Below, piece after piece: positions 44,310 to 63,012 of a DNA stretch of 64,000 nucleotides; position 1 is the first letter of the stretch; every line of letters starts with the position of its first letter. Origin of the DNA: Candidatus Hebobacterum abditum (GTDB lineage: Bacteria > Armatimonadota > Hebobacteria > Hebobacterales > Hebobacteraceae). The notes below the pieces were generated by a model that worked only from the letters and a program-made list of their open reading frames with translations, searched no databases and was not told where the DNA came from. The translations under genes and the position numbers were made by a program. Where the stretch lies: positions 124,001 through 188,000 of the forward strand of contig JALGXW010000002.1 in NCBI GenBank assembly GCA_029821875.1. Reading direction: 5' to 3'.

Positions 44310-45695
44310 CTACTCCGTGAGCTCTTTCGTGGCCTCGCGAGTGACCACTGCGCGCAGCGCAGTGGTTGCCGCGAGCCTGACGTTCGGATCTGGGTCCTGA
44401 AGGCAGCGTGCCAGCGCGCCAAGAGAGTCCACCGAGCCGATGTGCGCCAGCGAGCGCGCCACCTCCGCCCTGACCATAGCATCAGGGTCACAGAGCGCTG
44501 CCGCGAGCGGCTCTGCGGCCGGGCCGCCGAGCTCGCTCAAGCGCCGCGCGCCCTCCGCTCTCTGGGCCGGATCGGGGCTACGCAGCAACGCCACGGCGGC
44601 CGATGCCTCTACCAGCTCATCGCCGGTCAGAGAGGTCGCGACGGCGCCGTGCTCTGCCGCGGCCACCTCGTCCTCAGTGAATCCCAGCATCCTGAGGCCG
44701 GCTATGATCGCTCGGCGGACGCGTCGTGAGCCTTCGGTAAAGGACTCCACGCTGTGGCCGTCCTCGGAGAACCCTTCGAACTCCGGCTCGAAGGAGGCCA
44801 GCCCGTCGAGCAGATACTGCACGGCTCCTTCGACGTCAGTCTCGGCGAGCAGCGAGTACGCACGCGCCCTCACGAACCAATCGGGATCGAAGCGGGCGAG
44901 TCGGCGCAACTCGACGGTCGCGGTGTCGCCATCGACGCGCGCGAGCGCGCTGGCGACAGCAGCTCTCACTCCAGGGTCTGGGTCGGAGCTCAGCAGCGGC
45001 ACGAGCGCTTCCTTCAGGTGCTCCTCACCTATGTTTCCGAGGGACTCGGCCGCGAGCCGTCGCGCTTGTGGGCTCAGACTGGCGAGTTGGCCGACCAGGT
45101 AGTCAACGGCCTCCTCTCCCATGTGAACCAACGCGGCCGCCGCCGTTTCTGCCAGACGGCGGCTTGGGGAGGAGAGGGCATCCGCAAGGCGAGTGCATGC
45201 GTAGTCGGCGTCCCGCGCGGACATTGCGCGTGCGGCCGGGCCTGCAATGCCGGGGTCGTCGTCGCCCAACGCTTCGAGCAGTTCGTCTATAGCTCGCTCA
45301 TCCCCGACCTCACCCAGGGCTTCGATGGCCCGGAGCTTCGCCTGGAAGGCGCCCCTGCGCAGATCGCGGCCCCATCGGTCCAGCGCGCGCGTCTGCCGCA
45401 GCACCTCGATGGCAGCGGCGCGGGCGGTGTGGTCTTCCTCCGAAAGGAGCTCGCGGGCAACCGCGGCGGCGGCGCGGGCATCGGAGAACTCGATCAGCTC
45501 CTCGGTGGCGGCAGATCGGTCCTCGACGGCCGACAGGCTGGAGGGCGGCTCTCTCAGCCGGTCGGCGATCCGCCGGGCGCGCGCGAGGGCGTTCGCGTAT
45601 CGCCATCGTAGGATCACCCGCAGGCCCACCGCTGCCATCACAAGGCCTGCGAGGAACAGCGAGAGACCTCTCAACACGTCATACTCAACACCCAT
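44310..45695 (-). CDS. Membrane-anchored HEAT-repeat protein in the polysaccharide locus
   Basis: 461 residues. N-terminal helix 'LSLFLAGLVMAAVGLRVIL' (about 10-28), then HEAT/PBS-lyase-type repeats ('ATEELIEFSDARAAAAVARE', 'AIEALGEVGDERAIDELLEA', 'AAESLGNIGEEHLKEALVPL', 'VARSLAHIGSVDSLGALARC'). There is no enzyme motif, so it is a scaffold or interaction protein. It begins 22 nt after the GT2 gene and ends that operon, so it may position the glycosyltransferase in the membrane. A similar protein is at 23542-24993. Confidence 0.8.
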   Translation of the reverse strand: MGVEYDVLRGLSLFLAGLVMAAVGLRVILRWRYANALARARRIADRLREPPSSLSAVEDRSAATEELIEFSDARAAAAVARELLSEEDHTARAAAIEVLRQTRALDRWGRDLRRGAFQAKLRAIEALGEVGDERAIDELLEALGDDDPGIAGPAARAMSARDADYACTRLADALSSPSRRLAETAAAALVHMGEEAVDYLVGQLASLSPQARRLAAESLGNIGEEHLKEALVPLLSSDPDPGVRAAVASALARVDGDTATVELRRLARFDPDWFVRARAYSLLAETDVEGAVQYLLDGLASFEPEFEGFSEDGHSVESFTEGSRRVRRAIIAGLRMLGFTEDEVAAAEHGAVATSLTGDELVEASAAVALLRSPDPAQRAEGARRLSELGGPAAEPLAAALCDPDAMVRAEVARSLAHIGSVDSLGALARCLQDPDPNVRLAATTALRAVVTREATKELTE

Positions 45696-45716
45696 GAACA
45701 GACCGTTCCTCTGTCC

Positions 45717-46994
45717 TCAGCGACCCGATGGGCGAGCGGCCAAGGGTACTCTGACAGTCTTCTCCCAGCTGAGTCTCTCTTGTCTTACCACATCCAGCCA
45801 GTGCGCTTTAGCGCAGACGTAGATCCACAACTGGCAGTACGTGAAGTACATCGCCGTCGCAACCAACAGATTGAGGGGCGTGTTCTCTCCTTCGATCGCC
45901 AGGCCTATCGCCAACTGAAGAACGAAGATGGTGAAGGCGAGCACCCATAGAATCAGGAGCGGGCTGTGAATCGGCCCTACCGCAATGCCGGCAATGAGAC
46001 CCGCGAGGAAGATCAGGTCAGAAAGGAGCACCAGGAGGAAGAACACGTGGTAGATGGTCAGCAGGTGGAGCACCTCCAGCACGAGCTCCCGGCGGCGCAG
46101 TCTCCTCAGGCGCGGCAGGAACTTCCGCACGACATAGGTGCCGCCGCGCGCCCAACGGAGACGCTGGCGAAGCCAGACGCCCCAGTGCTGCGGCTCCGGC
46201 TCCCACGTCACGGCGTAGGGGACGAACTTCACGTGATAGCCCTCTTGCCCCAGCCTTACCGTCAACTCGGCGTCGTCGGCGATGGCGTCCACATCCCAAC
46301 CGCCGGCCCGCTCGAGCACCTCCCGCCTTATCACGTAGTTGGTCCCGGGCAGAGAGGAGAGACCGAGGAGGCGCCATCGGCCTGCCTGCACGGCCCACTG
46401 GAAGCTGATGAACTCTATACTGATGCAGCGCGTGAGCAGGTTCGTCGTGCGATTCAGGGTCCGCACCTTGCCGACAGCGGCCGCCAGCCGATCGTCCTGC
46501 ATGAGTTCGGCCACCAGCCCGCGCAGCGCGTGGGGCTCCGGGGCGTTGTCTGCGTCGTAGACGGCGATGAGTTCATATCGAGCGTGCTTCACGCCCTGGT
46601 TGAGGGCATGTGACTTCCCCCGCCCGCCCAGACCCGGTGGAATGGCGACCAGCTTCAGCCTGCGGTCCGTGGCCATCATGTGCTCGACGACCCGTCGGGT
46701 CCTGTCGGTGGATGAGTCGTCGATGACGATGACCTCCATCCGGTCTCGCGGGTAGTCGAGGTGCAGCAGGCTTTCTATGGTCCCCACCATTACGATCTCT
46801 TCGTTGTAGGCGGGGACGAGGATGGATACGCCTGGCCACTCCTCGGGGTCGGGCGCGCCGCGGCGCCTGGCCTCTCGGGAGTAGAGGAAGCCTGCCACCG
46901 TCAGCACGATGTAGAATCCAAGCACAGACCAGAGCCCGATCAGGCACAGGGCCAGCAAGAGGTCGCGCAGCAGGGCCAGCGTTGTGCCGCTCAC
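45717..46994 (-). CDS. Processive family 2 glycosyltransferase, membrane-bound (PgaC/BcsA-like)
   Basis: 425 residues. N-terminal helices 'LLLALCLIGLWSVLGFYIVL' (12-31), then a GT2 domain and three to four C-terminal helices (about 300-400). Catalytic set: 'VIDDSSTDRT' (D92), 'VYDADN' (D147-A-D149), 'IADDAELTVRL' (D240/D241) and QRLRW (277-281). The last motif marks processive synthases such as cellulose, poly-N-acetylglucosamine or hyaluronan synthase. The polymer and sugar donor are unknown. GTG 46994 overlaps the stop of the upstream gene by 4 nt. I infer an exopolysaccharide synthase. Confidence 0.85.
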   Translation of the reverse strand: MSGTTLALLRDLLLALCLIGLWSVLGFYIVLTVAGFLYSREARRRGAPDPEEWPGVSILVPAYNEEIVMVGTIESLLHLDYPRDRMEVIVIDDSSTDRTRRVVEHMMATDRRLKLVAIPPGLGGRGKSHALNQGVKHARYELIAVYDADNAPEPHALRGLVAELMQDDRLAAAVGKVRTLNRTTNLLTRCISIEFISFQWAVQAGRWRLLGLSSLPGTNYVIRREVLERAGGWDVDAIADDAELTVRLGQEGYHVKFVPYAVTWEPEPQHWGVWLRQRLRWARGGTYVVRKFLPRLRRLRRRELVLEVLHLLTIYHVFFLLVLLSDLIFLAGLIAGIAVGPIHSPLLILWVLAFTIFVLQLAIGLAIEGENTPLNLLVATAMYFTYCQLWIYVCAKAHWLDVVRQERLSWEKTVRVPLAARPSGR

Positions 46995-49555
46995 GGGAGT
47001 CCCTCGTATGCGTGCTTGAGAAGGGGCCAGGCCGCCTTGCTATCGATGGCGGCCGAATGGTAGCACTCGATCCCCTGGGCCTCGACGGGCCGAAGGCGGT
47101 CGATGGTTGTCGCGATCTTGGTAGGAGTCATCTGCTGCGATCCGAAGTCCGTCAGCTCCACGTGAAGGAGCACGCGCGCCCGCCCGTCTGTGCGCCGCAC
47201 CAGCCGCTGTGCCGTCTCTTCCGCCCAGTCATAGTTGAACACCTGAGTGCCGTAGATCGCGGCCCACTGCTGCCAGATGATCTCGAAGTTGACCCAGTCC
47301 GGCGGGTACGGCCCTTCGAGCAGGGCCTCCAGGTCAAACCCCGATTCGGCTGCCTGACGGCGGGGGCTGAGAATGGCGCCGTTGCTCCACGCGTCGCTGA
47401 TGGTCATAATGTAGGTGTCGATTCCCTCCTCTGCCACAGCCTTGATGCACTCTGACAGGAACTCCGTCAGCCCCTCTGCCCGGAATGCTCGCCAGACTCC
47501 GCCGCCCAGCGGCTCGCCGGAATGCGCGCGCGCGAACTCATCGCGGCACGCGTCGCAGTAGCACGCTTGACTGCCAAACCAGTTGACCACCGGCTCACAA
47601 AGCTCGATGCCGTCCAGAGTGGGATACCGGCGAGCCAGGTCCCTCAGAAGACCCGAGTACCACTCCCGGACTTCGGGATTCCGCGGGCACAGGAAGTAGG
47701 CCACGTGCAATCGGAGCGGATTGTGCGCTCGGCCGTCTCGTGTGCGCTCGCGCCACTCAGGATGGTTCTTCCACATCTTCTTGTCGCGCCCGCTGTACAG
47801 CCATGCCACCACGCGTATGCCGCGTGCGTGGCATGCCTCCAGCATGTGTGCCAGCAGGTCTTGCCGGCCCCAGTCGCTGAGTGACGCGCCGCGGTGGCGC
47901 GTTCGGTAGGCGGCACCCTCGCTCACGTTGTAAGCATAGAAGAATACCGTATTCACTCCGTTTCGCTGATAGCGCTCCGCGAGCATTCCGGCCAGTTCCC
48001 TGCTCGGCAATCCGGTGCTGCTGTAGGCCCACGGGTCGAGAGTCACACCCTTGATGAAGGGACGAGGAGCCTGCTCTCTCACCAGCTCCACAACGACCAC
48101 CCGCCGCTCGGGTGCTTTCACGCGAAGTGGCCCGGGACTAGACTCGCCTACCTCCCATCTCTCTTCACGTTCTACATCCCAGCGCGGACCGAGTGTGGTC
48201 AGTCTCACTGGAGTCCCAGCCGGGACGCGGAGATCGGCCAGGCCGGAGACAAGGGTCCGCCGTTTGTCCTCCACGAGCGCGTCGAAGTCGCGGAGATCGG
48301 CGAGGAGCCACCCCTTGGCCTCTCTGTCGCGCAGGAAGCTCTGGAATGGTTTCGGCGGGGCCCAGAGACCGAAGGAGACCAGTGCGACGGCGTCGCGAAC
48401 CACCGACAGCATGTCCAGGCGAGCATCATCCGCCGCCGATACATTGCCCGCGTCGCTGATGTCCACTGGAGCAGGCATAGCTCCCCCCGCGCAGTAGGGA
48501 GGGGACTCATCCGGGCCCTCGATCCGCAGCCGGAATGGATTCTCGGACGTCGTGGGGCCCGCCCAGGCGAGCGGGTGCAGGCCCACCTCCCAGGCCAGGC
48601 GGAAGTGCTCGAGAGGGTCCAGACCCGTGTCCGCCACGAGCGCGACGGTGGCCCCCATCGACTCCGCTGTGCGAAGGCCTTCCGCTGCGTCCGGTCGGTC
48701 CGCCAGTGGGACGTCCCGCCAGTTCGTCCAGGCCATGACAGCAACAGGTGTCCCGGACTCCAGCATCGGAGCGACTGCGTGTGGGACCTGAGTTGTGCGC
48801 GCCCATATGGGAACATCGCGGAGCACCGGCACGAGTCTCTGCGGCCGGCCGGAGTGAGGCCGCGCCAGTATCTCGTGCAGAACGTCCGCCCAGATGCACG
48901 CGGTCCAGAAGCGGTCACGCCTCAGAGAGGGGCCTGCAGCCGCGTACCAGAGCCGGTTGCTCCCCGCGACAAACGGGCGTGTTTCGGACTGCCGATCTGC
49001 TACAACTAGGACCGCGGTTGGCTCCTCGATCTCAACAGCGGGGACGGCCAGTCGCTCAACGTGCTTCTCAGCTTGGTAGGTTATCCTCCAGTCGACTGCC
49101 TCGGGCAGCATTTCGTCGGCCGCGCCCTTGCGGAGGCCGAGTCTCGCCAAGGCCTCTCCGCCAAGGATCGCAACTCCCGGCCCCACCCACGCGGCGATGC
49201 CCGTGAAGCGCTCGAGATCCGCCAGGAAGCTCGCCCTCGCGTCTTCATCGGGCTTCCCGGCTAGATAGAACACGGAGTAGTACCCAAGCGCTGTTCCTTC
49301 GTCATAGTGCTCGGCCGCCACGATGTCGCAATACTCTTCGAAATGAGCGACGAGAGTTTCGAGCACCTCGGCGCTCTCCGCCACCGCCGCGCCCTGCGGG
49401 CCCTCGGTCTCCGTGATCAGCAACACGCGTGCCGCGTGGTCGACCGGAATGAAGGAGAGGTCGGGCCGCGCCGGCAGCTCCGGCGGAGGAGCGCGGTCAC
49501 AGGAGGCGCCGATGAAGACCAGCAGAGAACAGAGGAGCAGTCGCGCCAACCTCAT
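46991..49555 (-). CDS. Lipoprotein-like protein: deacetylase-like domain plus TIM-barrel hydrolase-like domain
   Basis: 854 residues. Start 'LLLCSLLVFIGASCDRAP' is a probable lipoprotein signal (Cys at 19; the lipobox is not perfect). Residues about 40-420 resemble DUF2334-type polysaccharide-deacetylase-like proteins ('FVAGSNRLWYAAAG', 'LVPVLRDVPIWA') without a clear His-rich active site. Residues about 500-850 form a glycoside-hydrolase-like TIM barrel: 'RYQRNGVNTVFFYAYN', 'ARGIRVVAWLYSG', 'NHPEWRERTRDG', 'LDGIELCEP', 'CYCDACRDEF'. This fits hypothetical hydrolase families (GHL6/GHL10-like). By analogy with PgaB it may trim or deacetylate the polymer made by the adjacent GT2. It overlaps both neighbours by 4 nt. 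Confidence 0.62.
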   Translation of the reverse strand: MRLARLLLCSLLVFIGASCDRAPPPELPARPDLSFIPVDHAARVLLITETEGPQGAAVAESAEVLETLVAHFEEYCDIVAAEHYDEGTALGYYSVFYLAGKPDEDARASFLADLERFTGIAAWVGPGVAILGGEALARLGLRKGAADEMLPEAVDWRITYQAEKHVERLAVPAVEIEEPTAVLVVADRQSETRPFVAGSNRLWYAAAGPSLRRDRFWTACIWADVLHEILARPHSGRPQRLVPVLRDVPIWARTTQVPHAVAPMLESGTPVAVMAWTNWRDVPLADRPDAAEGLRTAESMGATVALVADTGLDPLEHFRLAWEVGLHPLAWAGPTTSENPFRLRIEGPDESPPYCAGGAMPAPVDISDAGNVSAADDARLDMLSVVRDAVALVSFGLWAPPKPFQSFLRDREAKGWLLADLRDFDALVEDKRRTLVSGLADLRVPAGTPVRLTTLGPRWDVEREERWEVGESSPGPLRVKAPERRVVVVELVREQAPRPFIKGVTLDPWAYSSTGLPSRELAGMLAERYQRNGVNTVFFYAYNVSEGAAYRTRHRGASLSDWGRQDLLAHMLEACHARGIRVVAWLYSGRDKKMWKNHPEWRERTRDGRAHNPLRLHVAYFLCPRNPEVREWYSGLLRDLARRYPTLDGIELCEPVVNWFGSQACYCDACRDEFARAHSGEPLGGGVWRAFRAEGLTEFLSECIKAVAEEGIDTYIMTISDAWSNGAILSPRRQAAESGFDLEALLEGPYPPDWVNFEIIWQQWAAIYGTQVFNYDWAEETAQRLVRRTDGRARVLLHVELTDFGSQQMTPTKIATTIDRLRPVEAQGIECYHSAAIDSKAAWPLLKHAYEGLP

Positions 49556-51312
49556 CTCTCGCGTGCGCCCCGACGCTGAGCAACGTGCAAGCTGTAGATG
49601 AGCAGCAAGAGCGCACTAGCCCCAATCGCGAACAGCACGACGACACGCGCAATCCGTTGCACTGCCCTCTCTGTGATCTGCTGTGGGTCGCCCTCGAAGG
49701 CGAACACGGTCTTCGGCTTCGACCCGCGTCTGTATGTCAACAGGAGCGCGCCCGGAGATACGAGTGTCTGCTCCTTCTCTCGCGCGTCGGACTGACCGAA
49801 GGAGTCCATCGTCCCGGGCTCCGGCCCCAACACCGTGGCATCCCAGCCGTCGGGAAGCACATCGGCCAACACCTGTTCCGAATCGAAGGTCCGAACACGG
49901 AGGGAGTCGCCTTGGATCGTGTTCGTCATGTCGCGGAGGTCCACGAACTCGTATCCCATGCTCTGCAGCCCGGTGACGAGCAGCGTGATCGACTGTAGCG
50001 GCGCCTCCGGGGCTATCCTGACAGTGATCCACGGGTCCGGGACCGCGGCTTGGCGTCGGGCCGCCTCGAGCAGTGTCTCCACCTCTCCCCTGCCCTCAAT
50101 GAGCGGGGACAGATTGTCGGGCATGACGCGCAGGTCGTTCTCATTGTCCTCGATCAGGAATGGCATGGCCGGGGGCAGATAGCGGCCCTCGACAGCCACG
50201 CGGCGCTCGAGGACCGTAGAGCAGGCCCGCGCCAGTGTTGGGTGCTCCTGCCCTATGTCCCCGTCCCTCGGGGCCGCCAACGCGACCGGATACAGTCCGC
50301 AGCGCGCCAACTCCCCGATCACCTGCTCCAGGCCCGCTCGGAGCGAGGGGCCGGCAGCGCCCGAGGCAGGGGCCGCGCCGCCTGTGTGCTCACCCTCGGC
50401 GGGCAGTGATGCAACGATGCTGGCGCCTTCCCGCTGGGCGCCGCGCAAGACCCCAATCAATCCTCTCTTGCTGCTCAGTCGGATGGGCTCTCCTGGCACA
50501 GGTCCCGGCGTGAGGGCCGCGACCTCTATGACAAAGGGGGTTCGGGCCCCGTTGAGCTGGCGCATGAGAGCGGAGAGGCCCCCGGCGTCCGTGTCCGGGT
50601 CCACCGCCGTCACGACGAGCAAGGCGAGACGCTGGTCCCCGTGAGTCTGGGCGAGCACCTCGTGCATCTCGTTGGCAAGGATCAAGTAGGTCCCGCCCCT
50701 GCGGGCGTGGTCCAGCAGCACCTCCGGGAAGTACCAGAGACGGCCGCTCCGCACCGCGTAGGGGCGCTGGTCTGTGTCGCCGCGTACCGTGGCAAGAACG
50801 GCACACACGTCGGGCCTCGTGCAGGTGATACGCGGCAGCGGCAGCTCGGCCCGCCAGTACGGCATCCCCTGGTAGATGACTCGCGTGGGCGCGGGCTCCG
50901 GCGATGTTGGGCCGATCTCGAAGCCGTAGCGGCCCAGAGAGTAACGTGCGGCAAGCTGCTCGAAGTTGGCTCCGATCCAACAGACCGTGCGGTCGAGATC
51001 GTAGCAGTCGACGAGGAAGGCGTCGGGCAGGTTGACTCCCTCCCTCAGGCCAAGGTAGATCGTAGCGCTGTACTCGACCAGCAAGTGAGATGTGTAGTCC
51101 TGAACAGGAACTACAGTGACATCGACGTCGAAGTGGAACAGGAGGTCCACCGCGGATGAGATCAGTCTGCGCTCTGCCGGCCCGGGGTCGCGGCCGGCAT
51201 CGTGCACGAGCAGTACGCTCTGGGTAGCGGCCTCCCCGCCAGTGACCGATGCTGCCAGAAGGAGTACAGCGAGGGCGATTCTTCCCCTGATTGCTGGTTG
51301 GATGGTTGCCAT
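49552..51312 (-). CDS. Secreted, membrane-anchored degenerate deacetylase-like protein
   Basis: 586 residues from ATG 51312. Signal peptide 'IALAVLLLAASVTGGEA' and a C-terminal helix 'VVLFAIGASALLLLIYSL'. The layout is like the first half of the next protein: 'SVLLVHDAG', 'YAVRSGRLWYFPE', 'LALLVVTAVDPDTDAGG', 'MRQLNGARTPFVIEVAAL'. This is a DUF2334/polysaccharide-deacetylase pattern, but the metal-binding 'DD' and His motifs are missing, so it is probably not catalytic. It may bind the glycan. First gene of the four-gene operon (4-nt overlap with the next). Confidence 0.6.
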   Translation of the reverse strand: MATIQPAIRGRIALAVLLLAASVTGGEAATQSVLLVHDAGRDPGPAERRLISSAVDLLFHFDVDVTVVPVQDYTSHLLVEYSATIYLGLREGVNLPDAFLVDCYDLDRTVCWIGANFEQLAARYSLGRYGFEIGPTSPEPAPTRVIYQGMPYWRAELPLPRITCTRPDVCAVLATVRGDTDQRPYAVRSGRLWYFPEVLLDHARRGGTYLILANEMHEVLAQTHGDQRLALLVVTAVDPDTDAGGLSALMRQLNGARTPFVIEVAALTPGPVPGEPIRLSSKRGLIGVLRGAQREGASIVASLPAEGEHTGGAAPASGAAGPSLRAGLEQVIGELARCGLYPVALAAPRDGDIGQEHPTLARACSTVLERRVAVEGRYLPPAMPFLIEDNENDLRVMPDNLSPLIEGRGEVETLLEAARRQAAVPDPWITVRIAPEAPLQSITLLVTGLQSMGYEFVDLRDMTNTIQGDSLRVRTFDSEQVLADVLPDGWDATVLGPEPGTMDSFGQSDAREKEQTLVSPGALLLTYRRGSKPKTVFAFEGDPQQITERAVQRIARVVVLFAIGASALLLLIYSLHVAQRRGARER

Positions 51313-51416
51313 CACATCGAGGCGGGAGTTGCTGTTCCGCTCACTGCCAATGCCAGTGTACCATGCCACGTTAGCCTACACACACGCGAGGCGGCCGCGG
51401 GTCCGGGGCGAAGAGA

Positions 51417-51453
51417 AGGCCCGGCCGGGCGCGGAGGACACCCGACCGGGCCT
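51417..51453 (-). terminator. Terminator of the membrane-anchored hydrolase-like gene
   Basis: AGGCCCGGCCGGG (51417-51429) and CCCGACCGGGCCT (51441-51453) form a 13-bp stem with one mismatch and an 11-nt loop. On the minus strand TCTCTTC follows. It separates the gene at 51587 from the next operon. Confidence 0.6.
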
Positions 51454-51586
51454 CTGCCTGCAGCGCCGACCCGCTGCGAGAGCGGCCTCGGCGCTCGGCT
51501 GGTGTGGGCCACTGCCCCCTGCCTCCGGCTCCCTGACCCTGGGGGCCGGAGGAGCGCTGTCCACCACAGTGAGTCTTTGCTTGACC

Positions 51587-53275
51587 CTACTGACCGAGGC
51601 CGAGCCAGGCGGTCCTCAGGTATGGAGTAGCCGCCTCGGTCTCTGCGAGCAAGTGAGCGTCGTAGATGTCGATTCCGGCCGGGCCTCCCTGGGCCGCTGA
51701 CGCGATTGTGCGGCCGAGCTGAGGGCCATCCAGCGCACCCGCGCCGAAGTCGGTCACTTCGATATGCGCGATGAGCCTGGCGCGACCGCGCACCATCTCC
51801 CTTGCCTCGCGTACGGCGCCCTCGGTCCACTCTGGCGTGAAGGTGACTGGATCGCCGTAGAGGGCCGCCCACTGCTGCCATATCAGCTCGGCCTGCAAGA
51901 CGTCGGGCCGGTCCGGGCTGCTCAGCACAGCCTCCAGGTCGAAGCCGATTGCGTCGCGGACCTGTGCGCTCGACATGAGTCGCCCGTCCCTTCGTGCTGT
52001 CGCCACCGTTGTGACGTGGACCTCTTTCCCGTGGCCGTGCGCAAGTCTGCTGCTTGCCGACAGCAGTTGCGTTAGCCCGTGAGCGCGGAACTCTCGCCAT
52101 GCCTTGCTGGGCGCCACTGCGGCTGGATGAGCCTGGGCAAACTGCCTGCGGCAGTGCTCACAGTGGCACGCGTTGTCGCCCCAGAGATCCAGCTGGAACT
52201 CAGCAAGGTCGATGCCATCGAGCTCGGGATAGCCGGTCAACAGATCGTCCAGCAGGCCGAGCCACCACTGAACCACTTCCGGGTTCCGAACACAGAGGAG
52301 GAAGCTATCCGGGTCCGGCTTGTAGTCAGTGCCGTCGGAGTTCTTCTCGCGCCACTCGGGGTACTTCTCCCACATCTGTTTGTGCTGCACGCCCTGGACC
52401 CACGCTATGATCTTGATGTCCCGGTGGTGGGCCTCCCGGAGGACGTGCCGCAGCAGATCCTGGCGGCCGTAGTCCTCCATGATGTTCCCGTCATACGACG
52501 TGCGGTAGCGAGCGCCGTACACTCGGTTGTAGGCATAGTAGTAGACCAGATTGACGCCTTGCTCGGCCCAGGAGTCGGCGAGCTCGACCGCGAGTTGTCT
52601 CGCGGATAGCCCGCGTCCATAGTAGTAGCCTGCGTCGAACCTGACCGCGCGGACGTGTCGCATCGCCGGCGGTCTTGCGCTTGGCTCAGCAGTCTGCAGG
52701 GAAGAGATCTTGGGCGGCGACGACGGCTCGGGTGCGGGGGCCATAGGAACAACAGTGGCCGGCGCCAGCCTCGGCGCGCTTGCGACAGCAGGCGGCGGTT
52801 CGCTGGCTCGCAGCGCAGCCTCGTTAGAGGGGGCGACCGGTTCCGGCGCCGGCCGAATATGAGTGCTTTGGGGGTCAGGTGGTGTTCGCTGGCCTGACGA
52901 CGGCGGCGGTGTAGGAGAACGGGCCTCTACATCCACATCCGCGCGTGAGTCTGCGTCCTCTGTGTGGCCTTGAGGGAGACCAACCTCGGGGATGGCATTC
53001 TCAGTGCGACTGTGAGGCGCCTCGGCCGCGGCAGGCGTGCTGCTTGGGGCGTCCCGGTGCGGCAGAGGGGCAGGCCGGGCGGCCGGGGCGGGTGCCCGTC
53101 TGTCGCGCAGCGACGGCTTCCATGGGGGCTGGGCGAAGCGCCGTCCCGCAATGCCGGCCAGCGCAACGAGCGAGAGCGCAAGCGGCAATGGCAACAGCAG
53201 CCGCCACAGGCGCGCCCTCACGCGTCGCCTGACGGTCCGTGAATCCCCAGTGTGTCTGGTCCCGCTCGCACGCAT
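51587..53275 (-). CDS. Membrane-anchored TIM-barrel hydrolase-like protein with a proline-rich stalk
   Basis: 562 residues. A basic N terminus and one helix 'LLLPLPLALSLVALAGIAG' (about 26-44) anchor it. Residues 45-205 are a Pro/Ala/Ser-rich stalk. Residues 208-562 are the same hydrolase-like barrel as in the gene at 46991-49555: 'EQGVNLVYYYAYN', 'HRDIKIIAWVQG', 'KYPEWREKNSDG', 'LDGIDLAEF', 'CHCEHCRRQF', 'IWQQWAALYGDP', 'IEVTDFGAG'. Acidic residues at strand ends (D/E in 'GIDLAE') could be catalytic. It is probably a cell-surface glycan hydrolase; this is inferred from fold-type motifs only. Confidence 0.65.
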   Translation of the reverse strand: MRASGTRHTGDSRTVRRRVRARLWRLLLPLPLALSLVALAGIAGRRFAQPPWKPSLRDRRAPAPAARPAPLPHRDAPSSTPAAAEAPHSRTENAIPEVGLPQGHTEDADSRADVDVEARSPTPPPSSGQRTPPDPQSTHIRPAPEPVAPSNEAALRASEPPPAVASAPRLAPATVVPMAPAPEPSSPPKISSLQTAEPSARPPAMRHVRAVRFDAGYYYGRGLSARQLAVELADSWAEQGVNLVYYYAYNRVYGARYRTSYDGNIMEDYGRQDLLRHVLREAHHRDIKIIAWVQGVQHKQMWEKYPEWREKNSDGTDYKPDPDSFLLCVRNPEVVQWWLGLLDDLLTGYPELDGIDLAEFQLDLWGDNACHCEHCRRQFAQAHPAAVAPSKAWREFRAHGLTQLLSASSRLAHGHGKEVHVTTVATARRDGRLMSSAQVRDAIGFDLEAVLSSPDRPDVLQAELIWQQWAALYGDPVTFTPEWTEGAVREAREMVRGRARLIAHIEVTDFGAGALDGPQLGRTIASAAQGGPAGIDIYDAHLLAETEAATPYLRTAWLGLGQ

Positions 53276-53312: not shown

Positions 53313-53341
53313 GAGCCAAGGGGCCGTCGTCCCCTTGGCTC
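53313..53341 (-). terminator. Terminator of the zinc-ribbon gene
   Basis: GAGCCAAGGGG (53313-53323) and CCCCTTGGCTC (53331-53341) form a perfect 11-bp stem with a 7-nt loop, about 60 nt past the stop at 53402. The minus strand continues CTCTTTGG. Confidence 0.65.
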
Positions 53342-53401: not shown

Positions 53402-53599
53402 CTACCGATACTCGATGTTGATGTTCTCACCGGTGATCACAACATCTCGTCGACAGAGCTTGCAGCGTAAGATGAGCGTGTCACCGTTTCTGTAGGCCCA
53501 CCACTTCCCGCATAGACAACGCACCTTGCTGAGCTCAGACTCGGGGTCTTGTGTCTCCGCGGTCTTCGGGGGCCCCTGCTTGGGCCGTGCCGCAGACAT
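53402..53599 (-). CDS. Small zinc-ribbon protein
   Basis: 65 residues. One zinc-ribbon-like unit: 'CLCGKWWAYRNGD' and 'CKLCRRDVVITGENI', giving CxC and CxxC pairs. The first 25 residues are charged and Pro-rich ('PKQGPPKTAETQDPESEL'). No family is recognised. Such small ribbons often bind RNA or protein partners. GGAGGT stands 12 nt before ATG 53599. It sits upstream of the polysaccharide genes but has its own terminator. Confidence 0.65.
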   Translation of the reverse strand: MSAARPKQGPPKTAETQDPESELSKVRCLCGKWWAYRNGDTLILRCKLCRRDVVITGENINIEYR

Positions 53600-54178: not shown

Positions 54179-55087
54179 CTAAAGCGGGATCGAGTGGAAC
54201 CAGGTGAAGATGGCGTCCTCGTTGTCGGCATACACGCCAATGGCCTGCTGCGAATTCATCTGGTAGTAGAACGCGCCTACCCAGCCGTCTTGGCCTTCGA
54301 AGTATGCGCAGGCCCCGGCCTGAGCTGGCACGTAGCCGACTGGGATGTCGCGATTGTAGAAGACGAGAATCCAAGCCTTCCCATCGTCGCGCAGATGGGC
54401 ATCGCTGAGCCTGATCCCGTACACGTGAGCGTCTTCATCCCCGAAGTCGGCTGCCTCGCCGAACAAGGTCAGCCAGGACAAGGCCTCGATCTGGAGGTCC
54501 AGACTGGTGCCGGTGTCATCGAGGACGTCGAGCCAGCTTCCAGCCAGCACCACCGGCGCGCGTGCATCGTGCCTGGTGAGAGGGACCGCCAACCGCAGGG
54601 CGGTCATGCTCTCATCGCTCGACGCCCGAGGCCCCGCGTGCGTGAAACGGGTCGTGCCAGTCCCTGGCGTGAACGCGATCGTGCCAGCTATCGCCTGCAG
54701 TTGCCATCTGTTGATGTCCACCCCGAGTTCCCCGCCGAACAGACCTGGAGAGACGAGGATGCCCGCGGGCCCGAACATGGTGTACTTGCGACCAGCTGCC
54801 AGGTAGAGCGGCGCGTGGCCGAAGTCGACGCATGCGTCACCCACAAAGGACGTGTTGTCTTCGGTGCCGCCGATCCACCAGCCCTCGATCTTGGCGCTCA
54901 TGTAATCTGCAATAGGTCCCGAGAAGCCGGCGCTCACCTGATAGCGCGCCGTGTCATCGCTCGAGAGCGACACGGTGTACCGGAACAAGCTCGGCCACTG
55001 CGTGTCAGCGCCGGAAACGCCGGCCGTCAATGCCAAGATCGCAACCACCAGCAGATGTGGCGCGGCACAACGTGTGAGGTGCTGCAT
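54179..55087 (-). CDS. Secreted beta-rich protein, possibly an outer-membrane barrel
   Basis: 302 residues from ATG 55087. Signal peptide 'HLLVVAILALTAGVSGA' (cleavage about 27). The mature part has many alternating strands ending in aromatics ('KIEGWWIGGTEDNTSFVGD', 'LYLAAGRKYTMFG', 'GWVGAFYYQMNSQQAIGVYA'). That is typical of a beta barrel or a beta sandwich. No known family is recognised. GGGAGA lies before the chosen ATG; an in-frame extension to 55252 has no homology. It lies next to SLH-domain proteins, which tether surface layers or outer membranes to the wall. Confidence 0.6.
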   Translation of the reverse strand: MQHLTRCAAPHLLVVAILALTAGVSGADTQWPSLFRYTVSLSSDDTARYQVSAGFSGPIADYMSAKIEGWWIGGTEDNTSFVGDACVDFGHAPLYLAAGRKYTMFGPAGILVSPGLFGGELGVDINRWQLQAIAGTIAFTPGTGTTRFTHAGPRASSDESMTALRLAVPLTRHDARAPVVLAGSWLDVLDDTGTSLDLQIEALSWLTLFGEAADFGDEDAHVYGIRLSDAHLRDDGKAWILVFYNRDIPVGYVPAQAGACAYFEGQDGWVGAFYYQMNSQQAIGVYADNEDAIFTWFHSIPL

Positions 55088-55278: not shown

Positions 55279-56967
55279 TTAGGATATCGGTAGGTTGAAC
55301 GCGCGGCAGATGTAGACGGCCATCTGGCCGCGAGTCACGATGAACTCTGGATGGTACATGCCGTCGAGGTAACCTCTGACGATATCGTTCTCGGAGCAGT
55401 ACTCGATGTGCTTGTGGGCCCAGAAGGTATTGGGCACGTCGGCGAAGGTGGGATCATCGGGTGGCGTGTAGCCTTCCAGCCCCTCTTCTCCCTGTGGCGC
55501 CACATCTGCCCGGGCGATGTAGACGGCCATCTGGCCCCTGTCCACCGGCTGAGACGGGTGATAGCCGCCATCCGCATAGCCTTGAACGACCTTCACCTCG
55601 AACAGGAACTCGATGTACTTGCAGGCCCAGAAGGAATACCAGATGTCGTTGAAGGATGGCACGAGGGGAGGCTGGGGGACCTCGTCGTCCCCGCCGGCCA
55701 GGGCGCGCGCGATGTAGACAGCCATCTGGTCCCGAGTGACTTCCGAGGTGGGCCAGTAGAACTCCACGATCTCGCAGTAGAGCCCCGTGTCAGTGCCATA
55801 GCCTCGCACGACGTCGGCCTCATAGCAGGCGACGATCTCGTCCAGGGCCCAGTGCCAGCATTCGACATCGTAGAAGGGACTGCAGATGGTCTGCAGGCAC
55901 ATGACTCGGTTCCCGTTCTCGTCAGCCACCCACACGGTGTCGTCGTTGGGGTCGACGGCGAGCGCGGGCGCGTGGGAGATGCCGCCATAGGAGGCGCGGT
56001 GCGTGCCGTCGGGGTCCAGATGGACTACCTCGGAGGCGGCCGCCACCCAGCAGTCGCCGTGGTTCGGGTTGACGACAAGCGCCCGCGGCTCCTGCACGGC
56101 GACCCTCTGCAGTTCTGTCCCGTCGGCGGCCAGGTGGATCACCTCATGAGCGTAGGGATCGGCCACCCAGCAGGAGCCATCGACTTCGTTGACGGCCACC
56201 GCAATCGGGTAGAGGAAACTCCCGCCCCGCCACAGCTCCGAGCCACTGGCGGAGAGATGCACAACCTGCGCATTGGCGTTGTCGGCCACCCAGGCGGTGC
56301 CGTCGGTCGGATTGACGGAGATCGATGTCGGCAGGTTGAAGCCGCCCAGTCGCCACAGGATGCTGCCGGCGCTGGAGAGCTTGAGCACCTCATGGTTCTC
56401 GGTGTTGGCCACCCAGCAGGAGTTGTCATTGCGGTTGATGGAGATGGAACGCGGGTTCACTACGTCTAACACCGCCCACAGCACACGGCGTCGCTCATCG
56501 AGGTGCAGCACCTGCCCCGGCTCGGCCACCCATACACTGTCATCGGTCGGGCTGACCGCCAGGTCCGCCACCGGCCGGAAGTCGTTGGTGAACATGTTCT
56601 CGAAGCGGGGTCTGGCAATCTCCTGACACACATCGCAGTATAGGATCTCACAGTCACATTCACACTTCTCGGGACACCATGGCTTCCGCTCGCTCCAGTG
56701 GGGGAACCCGATGATCACCCGCCCTGGATGCTCGACGTCCCATCTGCCGGAGCAGCACCCCACCCACTCGGCTCCATACCAGCAGCGACCGTCGGAGGTG
56801 TTGACCGCGATGGCGGTGGGAGCGCCGGCCGGGAGGGCATCCAAGTAGACCTGATCCTGACGCACCGGGATGACCCTCTGCTGAATCAGCTCGACCGCGG
56901 CCTCAGCCAGCGCAGAGCATGCCAGAAGCAGCAGCACCATCGTGGGGCATAGCACTCGTGTCGACAT
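55279..56967 (-). CDS. Secreted seven-repeat beta-propeller protein with three SLH domains
   Basis: 562 residues from ATG 56967 (GGAGGG 8 nt upstream). Signal peptide 'CPTMVLLLLACSALAEA'. Seven repeats of about 42 residues with the core 'VNPxDGSCWVAD..N.EVVHL' span about 35-355, matching one seven-bladed NHL-type propeller. Three SLH units follow: one with 'EVTRDQMAVYIARAL', 'YADGGYHPSQPVDRGQMAVY', and 'YLDGMYHPEFIVTRGQMAVY'. SLH units bind pyruvylated secondary wall polymer, so it is probably a surface-layer-associated protein. A four-Cys cluster precedes the propeller repeats near 'EKCECDCEILYCDVC'. It is a paralogue of the next two genes. Confidence 0.8.
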   Translation of the reverse strand: MSTRVLCPTMVLLLLACSALAEAAVELIQQRVIPVRQDQVYLDALPAGAPTAIAVNTSDGRCWYGAEWVGCCSGRWDVEHPGRVIIGFPHWSERKPWCPEKCECDCEILYCDVCQEIARPRFENMFTNDFRPVADLAVSPTDDSVWVAEPGQVLHLDERRRVLWAVLDVVNPRSISINRNDNSCWVANTENHEVLKLSSAGSILWRLGGFNLPTSISVNPTDGTAWVADNANAQVVHLSASGSELWRGGSFLYPIAVAVNEVDGSCWVADPYAHEVIHLAADGTELQRVAVQEPRALVVNPNHGDCWVAAASEVVHLDPDGTHRASYGGISHAPALAVDPNDDTVWVADENGNRVMCLQTICSPFYDVECWHWALDEIVACYEADVVRGYGTDTGLYCEIVEFYWPTSEVTRDQMAVYIARALAGGDDEVPQPPLVPSFNDIWYSFWACKYIEFLFEVKVVQGYADGGYHPSQPVDRGQMAVYIARADVAPQGEEGLEGYTPPDDPTFADVPNTFWAHKHIEYCSENDIVRGYLDGMYHPEFIVTRGQMAVYICRAFNLPIS

Positions 56968-57023
56968 GAGCCGGCCCTCCACTCGTGAGAAGCTATCGGG
57001 TTGTGCGCGTCCTGCCCATCGAA

Positions 57024-58724
57024 CTAGGAGATCGGCAGCTCGAACGCGCGGCAGATGTAGACGGCCATCTGGTCCCGCGTCACTGGGAACTCGGGGTGAT
57101 ACGTCCCGTCGATGTAGCCTTTGACGATGTCGTTTTCGGCGCAGTACTCGATATGCTTGTAGGACCAGAAACTCGTCGGCACATCGGGAAAGGTCGGCTG
57201 CTCAGGTGGGACGTAACCCTCCAAGCCGTCCTCTCCAGTCGGGTCCACCACGGAGCGTGAGATATAGACGGCCATCTGTCCCCGATCGACCGGGATGGAA
57301 GGACCATAGGAGCCATCCGCGTAGCCCTGAGCCACGTTCTCGGCGTAGATGTGCTCGACGTACTTGTAGGCCCAATGAGAATACCAGACATCGCTGAACG
57401 TCGGCTGATACGGGCCGGGGGGCACGAAGGCATCGCCGCCGGCCAGCGCGCGAGCGATGTAGACAGCCATCTGGTCGCGGGTCACGAAGTACTCTGGGTG
57501 ATACACGTAGATGGTGCAGTCAGCGAAGTTCTTCTCCTCATACCCCCGAACCAGGTCGGCATCGTAGCAGGCGACGATCTGGTCGAGGGACCAGTGCCAG
57601 CAGTCGATGTCGCTGAATGGGCTGCAGATGGGGGCCAGATGAGAGACTCTGTTGCCCTCCTCATCCGACAGCCAAACCGTATCGTCGGCCACACAGACCG
57701 ACAGCTGGCCCGCGCCGGAGGGCCCAGCAGTGGTGGCACGCACGCTGCCGTCGGGGTCCAGATGGATCACCTGTGACCCAGCGATGACCCAGCAGTCACC
57801 ATGCTTTGGATTCACTGCCAATGCTCGTGGGGTGCTCATGTTGACTCGATGCAGCTCCGCGCCCCCGGAGTCCAGATGCACGAGCACGTTGGCGTGTTTG
57901 TCCGCCACCCAGCAGGAGCCATCGGATCTGTCGACCGCGACGGCCACCGGGTAGACGAGGTCGCCGCCGCGCCACAGTTCCGTCCCGGCGGAGTCCAGGT
58001 GAACGACCTGCGCGTTGCCGTTATCGGCGACCCAGGCGGTGCCGTTCTTCGGGTTGACGGAGACCGAGGTCGGCAGATTGAAGCCGCCTACGCGCCAGAG
58101 GATGGAGCCAGAACTCGATACGCGCAGCACCTCGTGGTTCTCCGTGTTGGCGACCCAGCAGGAGCCATCAACGCGATTCACCGAAACCGACCGCGGGTTG
58201 ACGTAGTCCGTTCCCACCCAGATGACATTGCCGTCTCTGTTGAGGTGAAGCAGCTGCCCCGGCTCGGCCACCCAGACGCTGCCATCAGTGGGGTTGACGG
58301 CGAGCGAGGCCGGCCGGCGGTAGTCCGCGTCAGCGTGGCCGAGGAAGCGGGGCATCAGGTAGTCTTCACACCGATACACAGGTGGAGTCTCTTCGGGAAG
58401 CTCGCAGGGGCCGCACCAGCTCATGCGCTCTGATAGGGGCGGGAAGCTGACGATCACCCAGCCAGTCAACTCGATGTACCAGTTGTGGCCGTCACAGCAC
58501 CGTACCCAGTCGGCCCCATACCAGCAGTGGCCGTCCACAGGATTCACAGCGACGGCCGAGGGACTGCCGGCCACTAGATAGGAGGCGCTCAGCGGCTGAT
58601 CGCAGTTGTAGCCCCAGCCGCGCGACAGCCCAACGAGTTCGATGGTCTCGAAGGCCGCCCACGCCGGAGTGGGTGCGACCAGAGGCAGAGCAGCCACGAT
58701 CAGGAGAAGCATCTTCTTGAGCAT
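57024..58724 (-). CDS. Secreted seven-repeat beta-propeller protein with three SLH domains (paralogue 2)
   Basis: 566 residues. Signal peptide 'MLLLIVAALPLVAPTPAWA' (cleavage about 24). Seven ~42-residue repeats (e.g. 'VNPTDGSVWVAEPGQLLHL', 'VNRVDGSCWVANTENHEVL', 'VDRSDGSCWVADKHANVLV') then three SLH units, the last 'YIDGTYHPEFPVTRDQMAVY'. Strong similarity to the previous gene, including 'NHEVL.....GSILWR.GGFNLPTS', shows recent duplication. GGAGGAA 8 nt before ATG 58724 is a good ribosome site. Role: surface or S-layer-associated binding protein, by inference. Confidence 0.8.
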   Translation of the reverse strand: MLKKMLLLIVAALPLVAPTPAWAAFETIELVGLSRGWGYNCDQPLSASYLVAGSPSAVAVNPVDGHCWYGADWVRCCDGHNWYIELTGWVIVSFPPLSERMSWCGPCELPEETPPVYRCEDYLMPRFLGHADADYRRPASLAVNPTDGSVWVAEPGQLLHLNRDGNVIWVGTDYVNPRSVSVNRVDGSCWVANTENHEVLRVSSSGSILWRVGGFNLPTSVSVNPKNGTAWVADNGNAQVVHLDSAGTELWRGGDLVYPVAVAVDRSDGSCWVADKHANVLVHLDSGGAELHRVNMSTPRALAVNPKHGDCWVIAGSQVIHLDPDGSVRATTAGPSGAGQLSVCVADDTVWLSDEEGNRVSHLAPICSPFSDIDCWHWSLDQIVACYDADLVRGYEEKNFADCTIYVYHPEYFVTRDQMAVYIARALAGGDAFVPPGPYQPTFSDVWYSHWAYKYVEHIYAENVAQGYADGSYGPSIPVDRGQMAVYISRSVVDPTGEDGLEGYVPPEQPTFPDVPTSFWSYKHIEYCAENDIVKGYIDGTYHPEFPVTRDQMAVYICRAFELPIS

Positions 58725-58984
58725 CGAACCATTCCTCCACAGCTCGACGAGGTCGAGCCGGCGGCTGTGCGCTGGTTGGGAGAACGCGATACTCAGCAGA
58801 AATCAGAGGTTCTCGCCGTCATTGCCCCCATGGGACCATAGCGGCGCCCCGCCCAGACACACCATTAGACGGGTCACGGCCTCGAAAAGCTCTCATGTGG
58901 CGACGCGCCGCGCCGGGCCCTCAGTTCTATTCTCCGCTTGCCGCGGAGGTCCCTGCACACGCGCTGTCGGCAGGAGGATCGACG

Positions 58985-61378
58985 TCACTCGACAAGCAAC
59001 TCAAAGGCGCGGCAGATGTACACGGCCATTTGGTCTCTGCTGACGATGAACTCGGGGTGGTAGTGACCGTCATCGTAGCCTTGCACGACGCCGGCCCCCG
59101 CGCAGTACTCGATATGAGTGTAGGCCCAGAAGGGCTCCGTGCCATGATCGCCATAGCCGGTGTCGGGCACATCCGGGAAGGTGGGTGTGGCCGGCGGGAC
59201 GTACTCAGCCAAGCCTTCCTCCCCGGTTGGGGTGACGATAGAGCGAGCGACGTAGACAGCCATCTGGGCTCTGTCGACCGGCACTTCCGGCCTATAGTCG
59301 CCCTCCGCGTAGCCCTCGACCACGTTCGAGGCCGCGACGTAGGCGATGTACTTGTAGGCCCAGAAGGTATCGGGGACATCGGGGAAGCCCAGGTCTTGAG
59401 TTGGTGCGGGCACGTATGAGTCACCGCCGGCCAAAGCGCGCGCGATGTACACGGCCATCTGGTCGCGCGTCACCGGCCAGTTGGGACGGTAGAGGCCATC
59501 CCCATAGCCGGACACCACATCCGCCGCCACACAAGCCGCTATCTCCTCGCCGGCCCAGAAGCCCGGAGGGACATCTGGGAAGATGCCGGCTACCGCGAAG
59601 CGAACGACTTGGCTGTTGCCGGCGTCTGCCACCCAGACGCCGCCGTCCGTAGGGCTCACGGAAACCGCAGTTGGATCGTGGAGTCCGCCGGTTCTCGACA
59701 GCTCCGTTCCCACTGCCGAAGTGTGAATGAGCTCGCCAAGATACCCGTCGACGATCCAGATGGACGCGTCGCGGGGGTCCACCGAGAGCGAAACCGGGCT
59801 GCCGAACTCAGTGCTCTGGAACAAGATCTCCCCCGAGGCTGAGAAGTGAACGACTCGGTGGTTCTGCCATTCGGCGACCCAACAGGAGCCGTCGTGCGGG
59901 TCAACGGACACGGAGCACGCGTCGTATTCGGCCGTACTCCGCCACAGCTCTGTGCCGTCAGCTGCGAGGTGCACGACCGCCTCACTTCCCTCCGCCGCCA
60001 CCCAGCAAGAGCCGTCCGTTGGGTCGACGGCCAGACACTGAGTGAGGAAGAGACCCCAACGCCGCCACAGCTCGTCGCCGTTGGCGAACAGGTGGATCAC
60101 CTCGTCGGTCACCCAGTCGCTCACCCAGACTGAGCCATCTCCTGGATCCACAGCTATGGCTTTCGGCTGAGTCAGATCGCCACCGCGCCACAGCGAAGCA
60201 CCTGACTCGGCCAGGTGCAGGACGCAGCCATTGCCCTGATCGGCGATCCAACAGGAGCCGTCGGCAGGATTCGCGGCGACGCCCTGGGGCCCGTTGAAGT
60301 TGCTGCTGCTCCACAGCTCGGCGCCATCTGCCGCGAAGTGGTGCGCCTGGTTGAGTTCCGGGTCAGTGACCCAGCAGGATCCGTCAGGGGTATCAGCCGA
60401 GAGGTATGACGGCGCTCTCATGCCACCGAGTCGGAAGAGCTCATATCCCCAGGATACGAGGCGCAGCACTCGATCCAGCTGGCGATCCGCTATCCAGACG
60501 GAGCCGTCGAGCGACGTGACCGACAGGGACAGCGGGGCCACCACGCTGCCCCCTCTCCAGATCTCATAGCCGTACTTGTCGAACTGCACCACTTGGGAGT
60601 CGGTCGCGCTCCCTACCCAGCAGGATCCGTCAGAGGAGTTGACCGAGACTACCTCGGGCCGCGCCACATCGCCGCCTCGCCACAGTTCCGCGCCTTCTTG
60701 CGAGAGATGAACGACCTGATCGTTGAGCGTGTCAGCGACCCAGCAGGAGCCATCTCGTGAGTCCACGCTCACGGACTCCGGACGGGCGAAACCGCGGCCT
60801 CGCCACAGTTCATTGCCGTCGGCGTCGAGATGCACGACCTCGCCAGCCAACTTGTTGGCCACCCAGCATGACCCATCGGTCTCGCTCACCGACACCGAGC
60901 AGGGCCCGTTGAATGACCCCCCGCGCGATAGCTCGCGTCCCTCAGCGTCCAAGTGGATGATCTCATGCCCGTCCAGATCAGCCACCCAGCAGGAGCCATC
61001 GGTCGGGTTGACCGAGAGTGCCCAGGGCACTTGGAAACCTGCGTGGCGGCCGAGCACGCCGCCGCCCGCCGAGATGTGGACCACCTCGCCGCTACCTGTG
61101 TCCGCGACCCAGCATGAGCCATCGGCGGAGTTGGCGCATACCCCACGAGCGCTCCAGAAGCCCGGCGTCTCGCTCAGGACCTGGCCGCTGGTGGACAAGT
61201 GAAGAACGCTGTTGCCTACGGAGGCCCAGCAGGAACGGTCGGCCTGGTTGACGGACACACACCAGGGAGTCCCCCAGGGACTCCGCCACGTCTCGACGAC
61301 CTCCTCGCTGGCAGCCGCGCGCACCAAGCACAGAGCCGCTGCCAGCGATAGGATGATTGTTGCAGCCTTCGCGCGCAT
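58985..61378 (-). CDS. Secreted 14-repeat beta-propeller protein with three SLH domains (paralogue 3)
   Basis: 797 residues. Signal peptide 'TIILSLAAALCLVRAAAS'. I count 14 propeller-type repeats (core 'DGSCWVAD', or variants such as 'DGSVWIAD' and 'DASIWIVD') between about residues 30 and 615, exactly twice the number in the two paralogues. Three SLH units end the protein ('PVTRDQMAVYIARALAGG', 'PVDRAQMAVYVARSI', 'IVSRDQMAVYICRAF'). It has weaker Shine-Dalgarno support than the others. Two stacked seven-bladed propellers are a simple reading. It is probably a surface protein. Confidence 0.8.
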   Translation of the reverse strand: MRAKAATIILSLAAALCLVRAAASEEVVETWRSPWGTPWCVSVNQADRSCWASVGNSVLHLSTSGQVLSETPGFWSARGVCANSADGSCWVADTGSGEVVHISAGGGVLGRHAGFQVPWALSVNPTDGSCWVADLDGHEIIHLDAEGRELSRGGSFNGPCSVSVSETDGSCWVANKLAGEVVHLDADGNELWRGRGFARPESVSVDSRDGSCWVADTLNDQVVHLSQEGAELWRGGDVARPEVVSVNSSDGSCWVGSATDSQVVQFDKYGYEIWRGGSVVAPLSLSVTSLDGSVWIADRQLDRVLRLVSWGYELFRLGGMRAPSYLSADTPDGSCWVTDPELNQAHHFAADGAELWSSSNFNGPQGVAANPADGSCWIADQGNGCVLHLAESGASLWRGGDLTQPKAIAVDPGDGSVWVSDWVTDEVIHLFANGDELWRRWGLFLTQCLAVDPTDGSCWVAAEGSEAVVHLAADGTELWRSTAEYDACSVSVDPHDGSCWVAEWQNHRVVHFSASGEILFQSTEFGSPVSLSVDPRDASIWIVDGYLGELIHTSAVGTELSRTGGLHDPTAVSVSPTDGGVWVADAGNSQVVRFAVAGIFPDVPPGFWAGEEIAACVAADVVSGYGDGLYRPNWPVTRDQMAVYIARALAGGDSYVPAPTQDLGFPDVPDTFWAYKYIAYVAASNVVEGYAEGDYRPEVPVDRAQMAVYVARSIVTPTGEEGLAEYVPPATPTFPDVPDTGYGDHGTEPFWAYTHIEYCAGAGVVQGYDDGHYHPEFIVSRDQMAVYICRAFELLVE

Positions 61379-62757: not shown

Positions 62758-62800
62758 GAGGGTGTTTGGGCGTGGGATTGACAAGTAAAGAACATGCGCT

Positions 62801-62953
62801 GAGCGGATGTGTTTGGGAAGACGGTGTGAATCCGTCGCTGCCCCGCAACTGTGACCGCGGACGAACGCCGCAGCGAGGCCACTGTCCTGGCGGTGCCGGG
62901 ATGGGAAGGCGCGGCAAGTAGGACGATGCGGAAGCCAGGAGACCGGTCTGCTC
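62801..62953 (+). promoter_or_regulatory. Cobalamin (adenosylcobalamin) riboswitch
   Basis: The class signature is complete: 'GGGAAGACGGTGTGAATCC' (62815-62833), then 'CTGCCCCGCAACTGT' (the conserved B12-box partner), 'CCACTG', 'GGGAAGGCG' and 'GAAGCCAGGAGACC' (the B12 box). The closing stem GAGCGGA (62801-62807) pairs with TCTGCTC (62947-62953). It senses adenosylcobalamin and represses downstream genes, here through the hairpin at 63013-63043. Confidence 0.95.
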
Positions 62954-63012
62954 GGGGAAGTCGAACGCCACTTCGCGGGAAGGGGCTTGGCTGACGGGTC
63001 CTAGCAGATTGC

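Follow-up and report, generated by a model that had tools for sequence, protein, structure and literature searches.

The Pss system of Listeria monocytogenes (pssA-E, lmo0527-0531) is the closest described counterpart of the locus reported here; pssC and pssE are required for its polymer (PMC4125290), a poly-beta-1,4-N-acetylmannosamine (poly-ManNAc) with galactose according to a review (PMC5039582). A similar logic is found in Pseudomonas Pel (9cgy; PMC12022489), which combines a deacetylase with a TIM-barrel hydrolase, and in the pgaABCD system for poly-N-acetylglucosamine (PNAG) of Escherichia coli, which pairs a GT2 synthase with a periplasmic deacetylase/hydrolase protein. Here we analyse a minus-strand locus in a stretch of 64,000 nucleotides (hereafter the window) from Candidatus Hebobacterum abditum (contig JALGXW010000002.1, positions 124,001 to 188,000; contig C27 of the 4.31-Mb metagenome-assembled genome (MAG) G000), whose own family we call f1, with genera g1 to g6. 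We consider it probable, at roughly 70%, that we are dealing with a Pss-type locus for synthase-dependent exopolysaccharide production in a diderm, in which P0002 would polymerise what is by family inference UDP-ManNAc, P0004 would act as a non-catalytic guide, P0003 and P0005 would trim the chain, and P0001 would serve as scaffold or regulator. The proteins concerned are the following.

45717..46994, minus: P0002, PssC-type processive GT2 synthase, 425 amino acids (aa); membrane segments at both ends; Glyco_tranf_2_3, 1e-33 (Pfam).
49552..51312, minus: P0004, PssB-type membrane-anchored pseudo-deacetylase, 586 aa from the ATG at 51312; signal, alpha/beta domain, degenerate DUF2334 domain, C-terminal transmembrane (TM) helix.
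46991..49555, minus: P0003, lipoprotein, 854 aa; alpha/beta plus degenerate DUF2334-like half (41-470), GHL6/GHL10-type TIM barrel (500-854).
51587..53275, minus: P0005, membrane-anchored second GHL10-type barrel, 562 aa; N-terminal TM helix, Pro/Ala-rich linker of about 150 aa, TIM barrel.
44310..45695, minus: P0001, HEAT-repeat protein, 461 aa; HEAT_2, 9.6e-42 (Pfam); one N-terminal TM helix (5-25).

All open reading frames (ORFs) were confirmed, and the description of four touching or overlapping minus-strand genes in an earlier sequence-only reading of this DNA was accurate: P0003 sits between P0004 and P0002 and overlaps each by 4 bp, a gap of 21 bp separates P0002 from P0001, and P0005 lies 274 bp upstream of P0004. 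Although an in-frame GTG is present at 51369, the ATG at 51312 is better supported as the start of P0004, both by the signal peptide and by its relatives. Compared with Listeria Pss, the locus has a GT2 synthase 44% identical to PssC and a protein with the layout of PssB (signal, alpha/beta domain, degenerate DUF2334 domain, C-terminal TM helix), but lacks PssA, the BcsB-like PssD and the GGDEF receptor PssE; two proteins with GHL10-type barrels and one with HEAT repeats are present instead. The same reading had called the glycan system undescribed and distinct, which does not hold in the strong sense, since Listeria pssC and pssB are homologs of the synthase gene and the deacetylase-like gene, a relation that had been missed.

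The synthase provides the firmest link. P0002 aligns with Listeria PssC end to end (44% identity, 339 bits), and is 40% and 38% identical to homologs in Enterococcus faecalis and Acinetobacter, respectively, while its scores against E. coli PgaC (29% identity, 110 bits), BcsA (94 bits) and NodC (88 bits) are much lower. Listeria was among the best matches when plasmid records were searched by tblastn with a deltaproteobacterial synthase and then with P0002. The QRLRW motif noted earlier lies at residues 277-281, and D93, D147, D149, D241 and Q277-R-x-R-W281 are invariant in 14 relatives. In the synthase tree, PssC-type sequences stand apart from the Pga clade, with the deep branches left open and BcsA on a long branch. 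P0002 reaches 170 bits with PgaC_IcaA, its best NCBIfam model, whose cut-off is 422; the same curated model comes out best for Listeria PssC (184 bits). The earlier statement that the locus is neither Pga nor Pel was borne out: P0002 falls below the PgaC_IcaA cut-off, no PgaA, PgaB or PgaD was found among the locus proteins with Pfam and NCBIfam, and neither was PelF or PelG, which Pel has in place of such a GT2 synthase. A reading as cellulose synthase was also rejected (CelA 100 bits against a cut-off of 699; no BcsB in f1). PgaC/IcaA annotations have been reported in some Armatimonadota MAGs (PMC10290634).

The arrangement of the locus is more than chance, because gene order is conserved across f1. 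P0003 orthologs occur in seven of the eight f1 genomes, the eighth being 55% complete, and the synthase is present in the same seven. Wherever contigs allow, the order P0004-P0003-P0002-P0001, ending at a convergent pfkB gene, is kept, so that the unconserved order named as a refuting outcome in the earlier reading did not turn up, and P0001 follows the synthase in every member whose contig covers it. P0005 precedes P0004 in g1, g4, g5 and g3 (there at a scaffold mis-join), and is on another contig in g6. Between two g1 species, dN/dS is 0.25 for P0004, 0.16 for P0003, 0.25 for P0005, 0.10 for P0002 and 0.13 for P0001. Among 201 Armatimonadota, a close GT2 was seen in only two genomes besides those of f1; these belong to family f3, and no DUF2334 gene adjoins it there. 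A third genome gave a weaker match.

Two database records deserve comment here. CP070816.1 (G007), a 'complete' chromosome of 2.80 Mb, contains scaffold joins at runs of N, one of which splits the P0004 gene into halves 1.5 Mb apart; both fragments share the same P0004 stretch at their edges, and the apparent second cluster in this record was therefore rejected as a mis-join. JAUVSA010000055.1 (L020, G010), titled Bacillota bacterium CSMAG_728, carries a Hebobacteria-type locus in the same order including pfkB, with a synthase 77% identical; it groups within f1, so that the Bacillota title looks wrong.

P0004 belongs to the DUF2334 proteins, although its own sequence has no Pfam match. Its g6 ortholog (L064) scores 84.7 bits to DUF2334 (PF10096; cut-off 26), and hhalign matches the f1 orthologs to intact DUF2334 proteins over 454 columns with a probability of 100% (E = 1e-71). 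Pfam, a check proposed in the sequence-only reading for the four proteins, finds HEAT in P0001, GT2 in P0002, GHL6 and GHL10 in P0003 and nothing in P0004 itself; P0005 matches GHL10. Compared as profiles, the P0004 family and PssB of Listeria and Enterococcus match at 95% (E 3e-8); Listeria PssB, encoded before pssC, is annotated as DUF2334 (23.3 bits, below the cut-off of 26), is likewise without the catalytic motifs and shares with P0004 the signal and the C-terminal helix. In P0004 that helix (residues 550-579) follows an N-terminal signal, so that the earlier view of a secreted, degenerate deacetylase-like protein stands as to domain and motifs but not as to free secretion. In an AlphaFold2 (AF2) model with a mean confidence (pLDDT) of 82.8, the best fold match in the Protein Data Bank (PDB) is PelA (9cgy, E 1.4e-9), with a low TM-score over the whole chain and about 11% sequence identity; PelA consists of a TIM barrel, an alpha/beta domain and a deacetylase (PMC12022489), the last active in Pel. 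The next matches are the heparan sulfate N-deacetylase NDST1 and PgdA and, lower, the CE4 pseudo-enzyme BA3943. Searches of PDB sequences with profiles of the barrel and of DUF2334 returned only weak, non-specific matches.

Intact DUF2334 domains are found in one f3 protein and in distant loci (1e-42 to 1e-50). The motifs RxED, HGxTH, (D)DYEFW, TPHY and (F)HPF are retained in the proteins of the deltaproteobacterial, elusimicrobial and acidobacterial loci (two of them with HGVSH) and nearly so in f3. In g6 they are partly lost (RIADV/RISGV, EGYTHQ/DGYTHQ, EDAEWW, TTPKG/ATPEG), and in P0004 of the window the putative active-site motifs RxED, HGxTH, TPHY and HP have gone entirely, reading VVTAV, SLPAEG, AAPRD and IAPE. 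Because the deacetylase site decays stepwise within f1 while dN/dS stays near 0.25, P0004 reads as a retained pseudo-enzyme, under constraint without catalysis. The earlier impression that the deacetylase-like domains are inactive agrees with this and with the degenerate N-terminal half of P0003. No DUF2334 protein besides the locus copies was found in G000.

P0003 does join a deacetylase-like domain to a TIM barrel, as first described: its N-terminal half matches the DUF2334 profile (99.6%, E 2.5e-24) as a second, shorter degenerate copy, and residues 525-707 match GHL6 (2.8e-11) and GHL10 (4e-10) in Pfam. Both P0003 (39.7 bits) and P0005 (34 bits, 2.2e-8) exceed the GHL10 (PF02638) cut-off of 27.9, and their barrels are 38-40% identical. 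E654, which follows a DG motif (D648-G649), and E758 of P0003 (A4 positions E176 and E280) are, together with that motif, the same in all 16 barrels compared, which come from several phyla; this glutamate pattern is what would be expected of a retaining glycosidase. P0005 had been described as a surface-anchored copy of the P0003 hydrolase-like domain. The shared domain is real, but surface anchoring is unsupported because the protein's only tether is an N-terminal hydrophobic stretch (23-45), with the Pro/Ala-rich linker; it has neither a sorting motif nor an SLH domain. With the DUF2334, GHL6 and GHL10 assignments, the proposed combination of a synthase with periplasmic deacetylase-like and hydrolase-like proteins is supported.

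Pairs of the PssB-PssC kind also occur well beyond f1. Genomes from three phyla were drawn by synthase score only, and in all ten that had not been seen before a DUF2334 protein is encoded directly upstream of the synthase, on the same strand; L092, being the same contig as L015, is not counted among the ten. The DUF2334 ORF also contains a TIM barrel in seven of the ten, namely all seven from Acidobacteriota and Elusimicrobiota. These fusion loci, unnamed and found here, have the same domains in the same order up to the synthase as the window, in one ORF as opposed to two or three genes; they differ in their intact deacetylase motifs, a frequently adjacent wecB, the lack of a HEAT gene and a C-terminal barrel subtype unlike that of P0003. 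In the acidobacterial L085, a single ORF adjoining pssC reads as P0005-type barrel (40% identity to P0005), intact DUF2334 and second barrel. The three new deltaproteobacterial genomes have a DUF2334 ORF without TIM barrel, with a GH8-type gene and an ORF of 1770-1840 aa downstream; the latter corresponds in L012 and L022 to TPR proteins whose C-terminal part reads as a beta-barrel. No HEAT gene of the P0001 type was found beside the synthase in the loci of other phyla.

Some of these loci show further variation. The GH8-like gene lies between the PssC-type synthase and the giant ORF in the deltaproteobacterial L089, L090, L091, L012 and L022. Two extra genes, one encoding a lactonase-like beta-propeller, separate the DUF2334-barrel ORF from the synthase in the acidobacterial L017 (7040-10005). 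In the Acinetobacter operons L069 and L081, wecB accompanies genes for a PssC-type synthase and a BcsB-like protein (so annotated in L069), and no DUF2334 gene could be recognised.

We would put it at about even odds that a widespread and as yet unnamed class of machines for poly-ManNAc exopolysaccharides is built around the PssB-PssC pair. The class would include at least Armatimonadota, Elusimicrobiota, Acidobacteriota, Firmicutes and a deltaproteobacterial phylum; Acinetobacter, too, has PssC-type synthases. In such a class DUF2334 would be a dedicated polymer N-deacetylase that repeatedly turned into a non-catalytic polymer guide, as in the window's family and in Listeria/Enterococcus, and exporter and hydrolase modules would have been swapped (TPR barrel or BcsB-like; GHL10 or GH8).

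The predicted product of the synthase family is a ManNAc polymer, because Listeria Pss is poly-ManNAc and a wecB-type non-hydrolysing UDP-GlcNAc 2-epimerase gene lies near the synthase/DUF2334 pair in 11 of 18 genomes from three phyla. The product of wecB, UDP-ManNAc, is the expected precursor of such a polymer. Broken down by phylum, the pair has this neighbour in 5 of 6 genomes of Acidobacteriota, 4 of 7 of Elusimicrobiota and 2 of 5 of the deltaproteobacterial group. Both Acinetobacter records also have it near their synthase, and five scanned proteins score 401-496 bits to TIGR00236. A naive binomial estimate (20-kb neighbourhood, at most five copies per genome) gives P < 1e-13 for 11 of 18, a figure that is truly weaker because related genomes are not independent.

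Taken together, a plausible scheme is that P0002 polymerises its nucleotide sugar on the cytoplasmic face and extrudes the chain. P0004, kept beside the synthase by its C-terminal helix, would take the emerging chain into its deacetylase-fold groove and, because the metal site of the groove is lost, would guide or hold the polymer and not deacetylate it. P0003 and P0005 could then trim or release the chain by means of GHL10-type barrels with both candidate catalytic glutamates. The charge pattern of P0001 suggests a cytoplasmic HEAT domain, and the protein may be a membrane-tethered scaffold or regulator, encoded in the position that the BcsB-like and c-di-GMP (cyclic di-GMP) receptor proteins occupy in Listeria.

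Several observations weigh against this reading. No equivalent of PssA, PssD (BcsB) or PssE was found in the window or in kin loci (for PssA and PssE the rest of the genome was not searched), and no BcsB match in any of the eight f1 genomes. No epimerase gene lies near the locus in f1, G000 having one copy on another contig, and the ManNAc prediction is weaker for the window locus for this reason. The match to Listeria PssB is based on two sequences, and the P0003 model is poor in the barrel region (pLDDT about 30-84), too poor for active-site claims. Hebobacteria-type MAGs encode lipopolysaccharide genes (PMC10290634), and an outer-membrane route for the chain should therefore be needed; the sequence-only reading had seen no export protein, and none was identified when the genome was searched with the barrels of two deltaproteobacterial TPR proteins. 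A conserved protein of 853 aa was rejected as exporter, its match being weak (E 0.0006-0.06) and its sequence reading as a TonB-dependent receptor. Upstream of P0005 the window holds two further features.

53313..53341, minus: terminator-like hairpin, 11-bp stem, from a pattern scan; just upstream of P0005.
54179..55087, minus: P0008, probable outer-membrane beta-barrel protein, 302 aa from an internal ATG, from reading of the sequence.

P0008 matched no Pfam or NCBIfam family and is a candidate for passage of the chain through the outer membrane, as a probable barrel; its orthologs adjoin the P0005 ortholog in G008 (87%) and G012 (47%), and the gene lies upstream in three genomes in all. The hairpin is the likely upstream boundary of the unit, but terminator-like sites in the region are at chance level in number, which makes it weak as boundary evidence. 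No c-di-GMP riboswitch was found upstream of the locus, and viral contigs gave no match.

The same synthase-dependent system could make another HexNAc (N-acetylhexosamine) polymer, such as a PNAG-like glucosamine polymer, a possibility we take seriously while doubting it: GT2 synthases easily change substrate, f1 has no adjacent epimerase, and PgaC_IcaA is the best curated model for P0002 and PssC alike, yet P0002 is much closer to PssC than to PgaC, PgaA, PgaB and PgaD are all lacking from the locus, and wecB stands beside relatives in three phyla and Acinetobacter. It is unlikely that the product is a cell-envelope or S-layer-attached, secondary cell-wall-like glycan and not a released exopolysaccharide, the barrels trimming or anchoring it and the SLH proteins encoded at 55279-61378 binding it. 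The membrane tethers of P0003 and P0005 would fit such a glycan, as would the SLH/NHL proteins encoded closely upstream, three in the window and at least two in G008; against this, no SLH genes were seen beside the system in other phyla, the hairpin and P0008/P0013 separate the locus from the SLH genes, and Listeria PssC makes an exopolysaccharide (PMC4125290).

Stepwise loss of all DUF2334 motifs within f1 might also indicate that P0004 and P0003 are inactive relics in a decaying locus whose order persists by descent only. We find this very improbable and largely excluded, as reading frames are open in all genera examined, the dN/dS values of both genes are low between the two species, synthase and barrel residues are intact, and Listeria PssB shows the same motif loss in an active operon (PMC4125290).

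In being a synthase-dependent exopolysaccharide locus it is ordinary; that it connects DUF2334 and pseudo-deacetylases with a Pss-type core across phyla is less so. What was an orphan locus is now tied to a characterised polymer, and the uncharacterised DUF2334 gains a testable role as ManNAc-polymer deacetylase. Among the related proteins the active site grades naturally from intact to wholly degenerate, and orthologs stay in the synthase operon after the loss; roles of polymer deacetylases other than deacetylation therefore become testable. For synthase-dependent export, the modular variants provide a comparative set: genes fused or split, TPR barrel or BcsB, GHL10 or GH8.

The remaining neighbourhood can be described briefly. 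An unannotated ORF of 65 aa (53405-53599, minus) with two Cys pairs (CLCG...CKLC, zinc-ribbon-like) and no Pfam match is kept at 60-92% in five f1 genomes, just upstream of the P0005 ortholog. Between 55279 and 61378, on the minus strand, three paralogous secreted proteins are encoded with NHL/beta-propeller repeats (a 123-bp DNA repeat) and three C-terminal SLH domains each. A cobalamin riboswitch (97.6 bits) lies at 62788-62965 on the plus strand.

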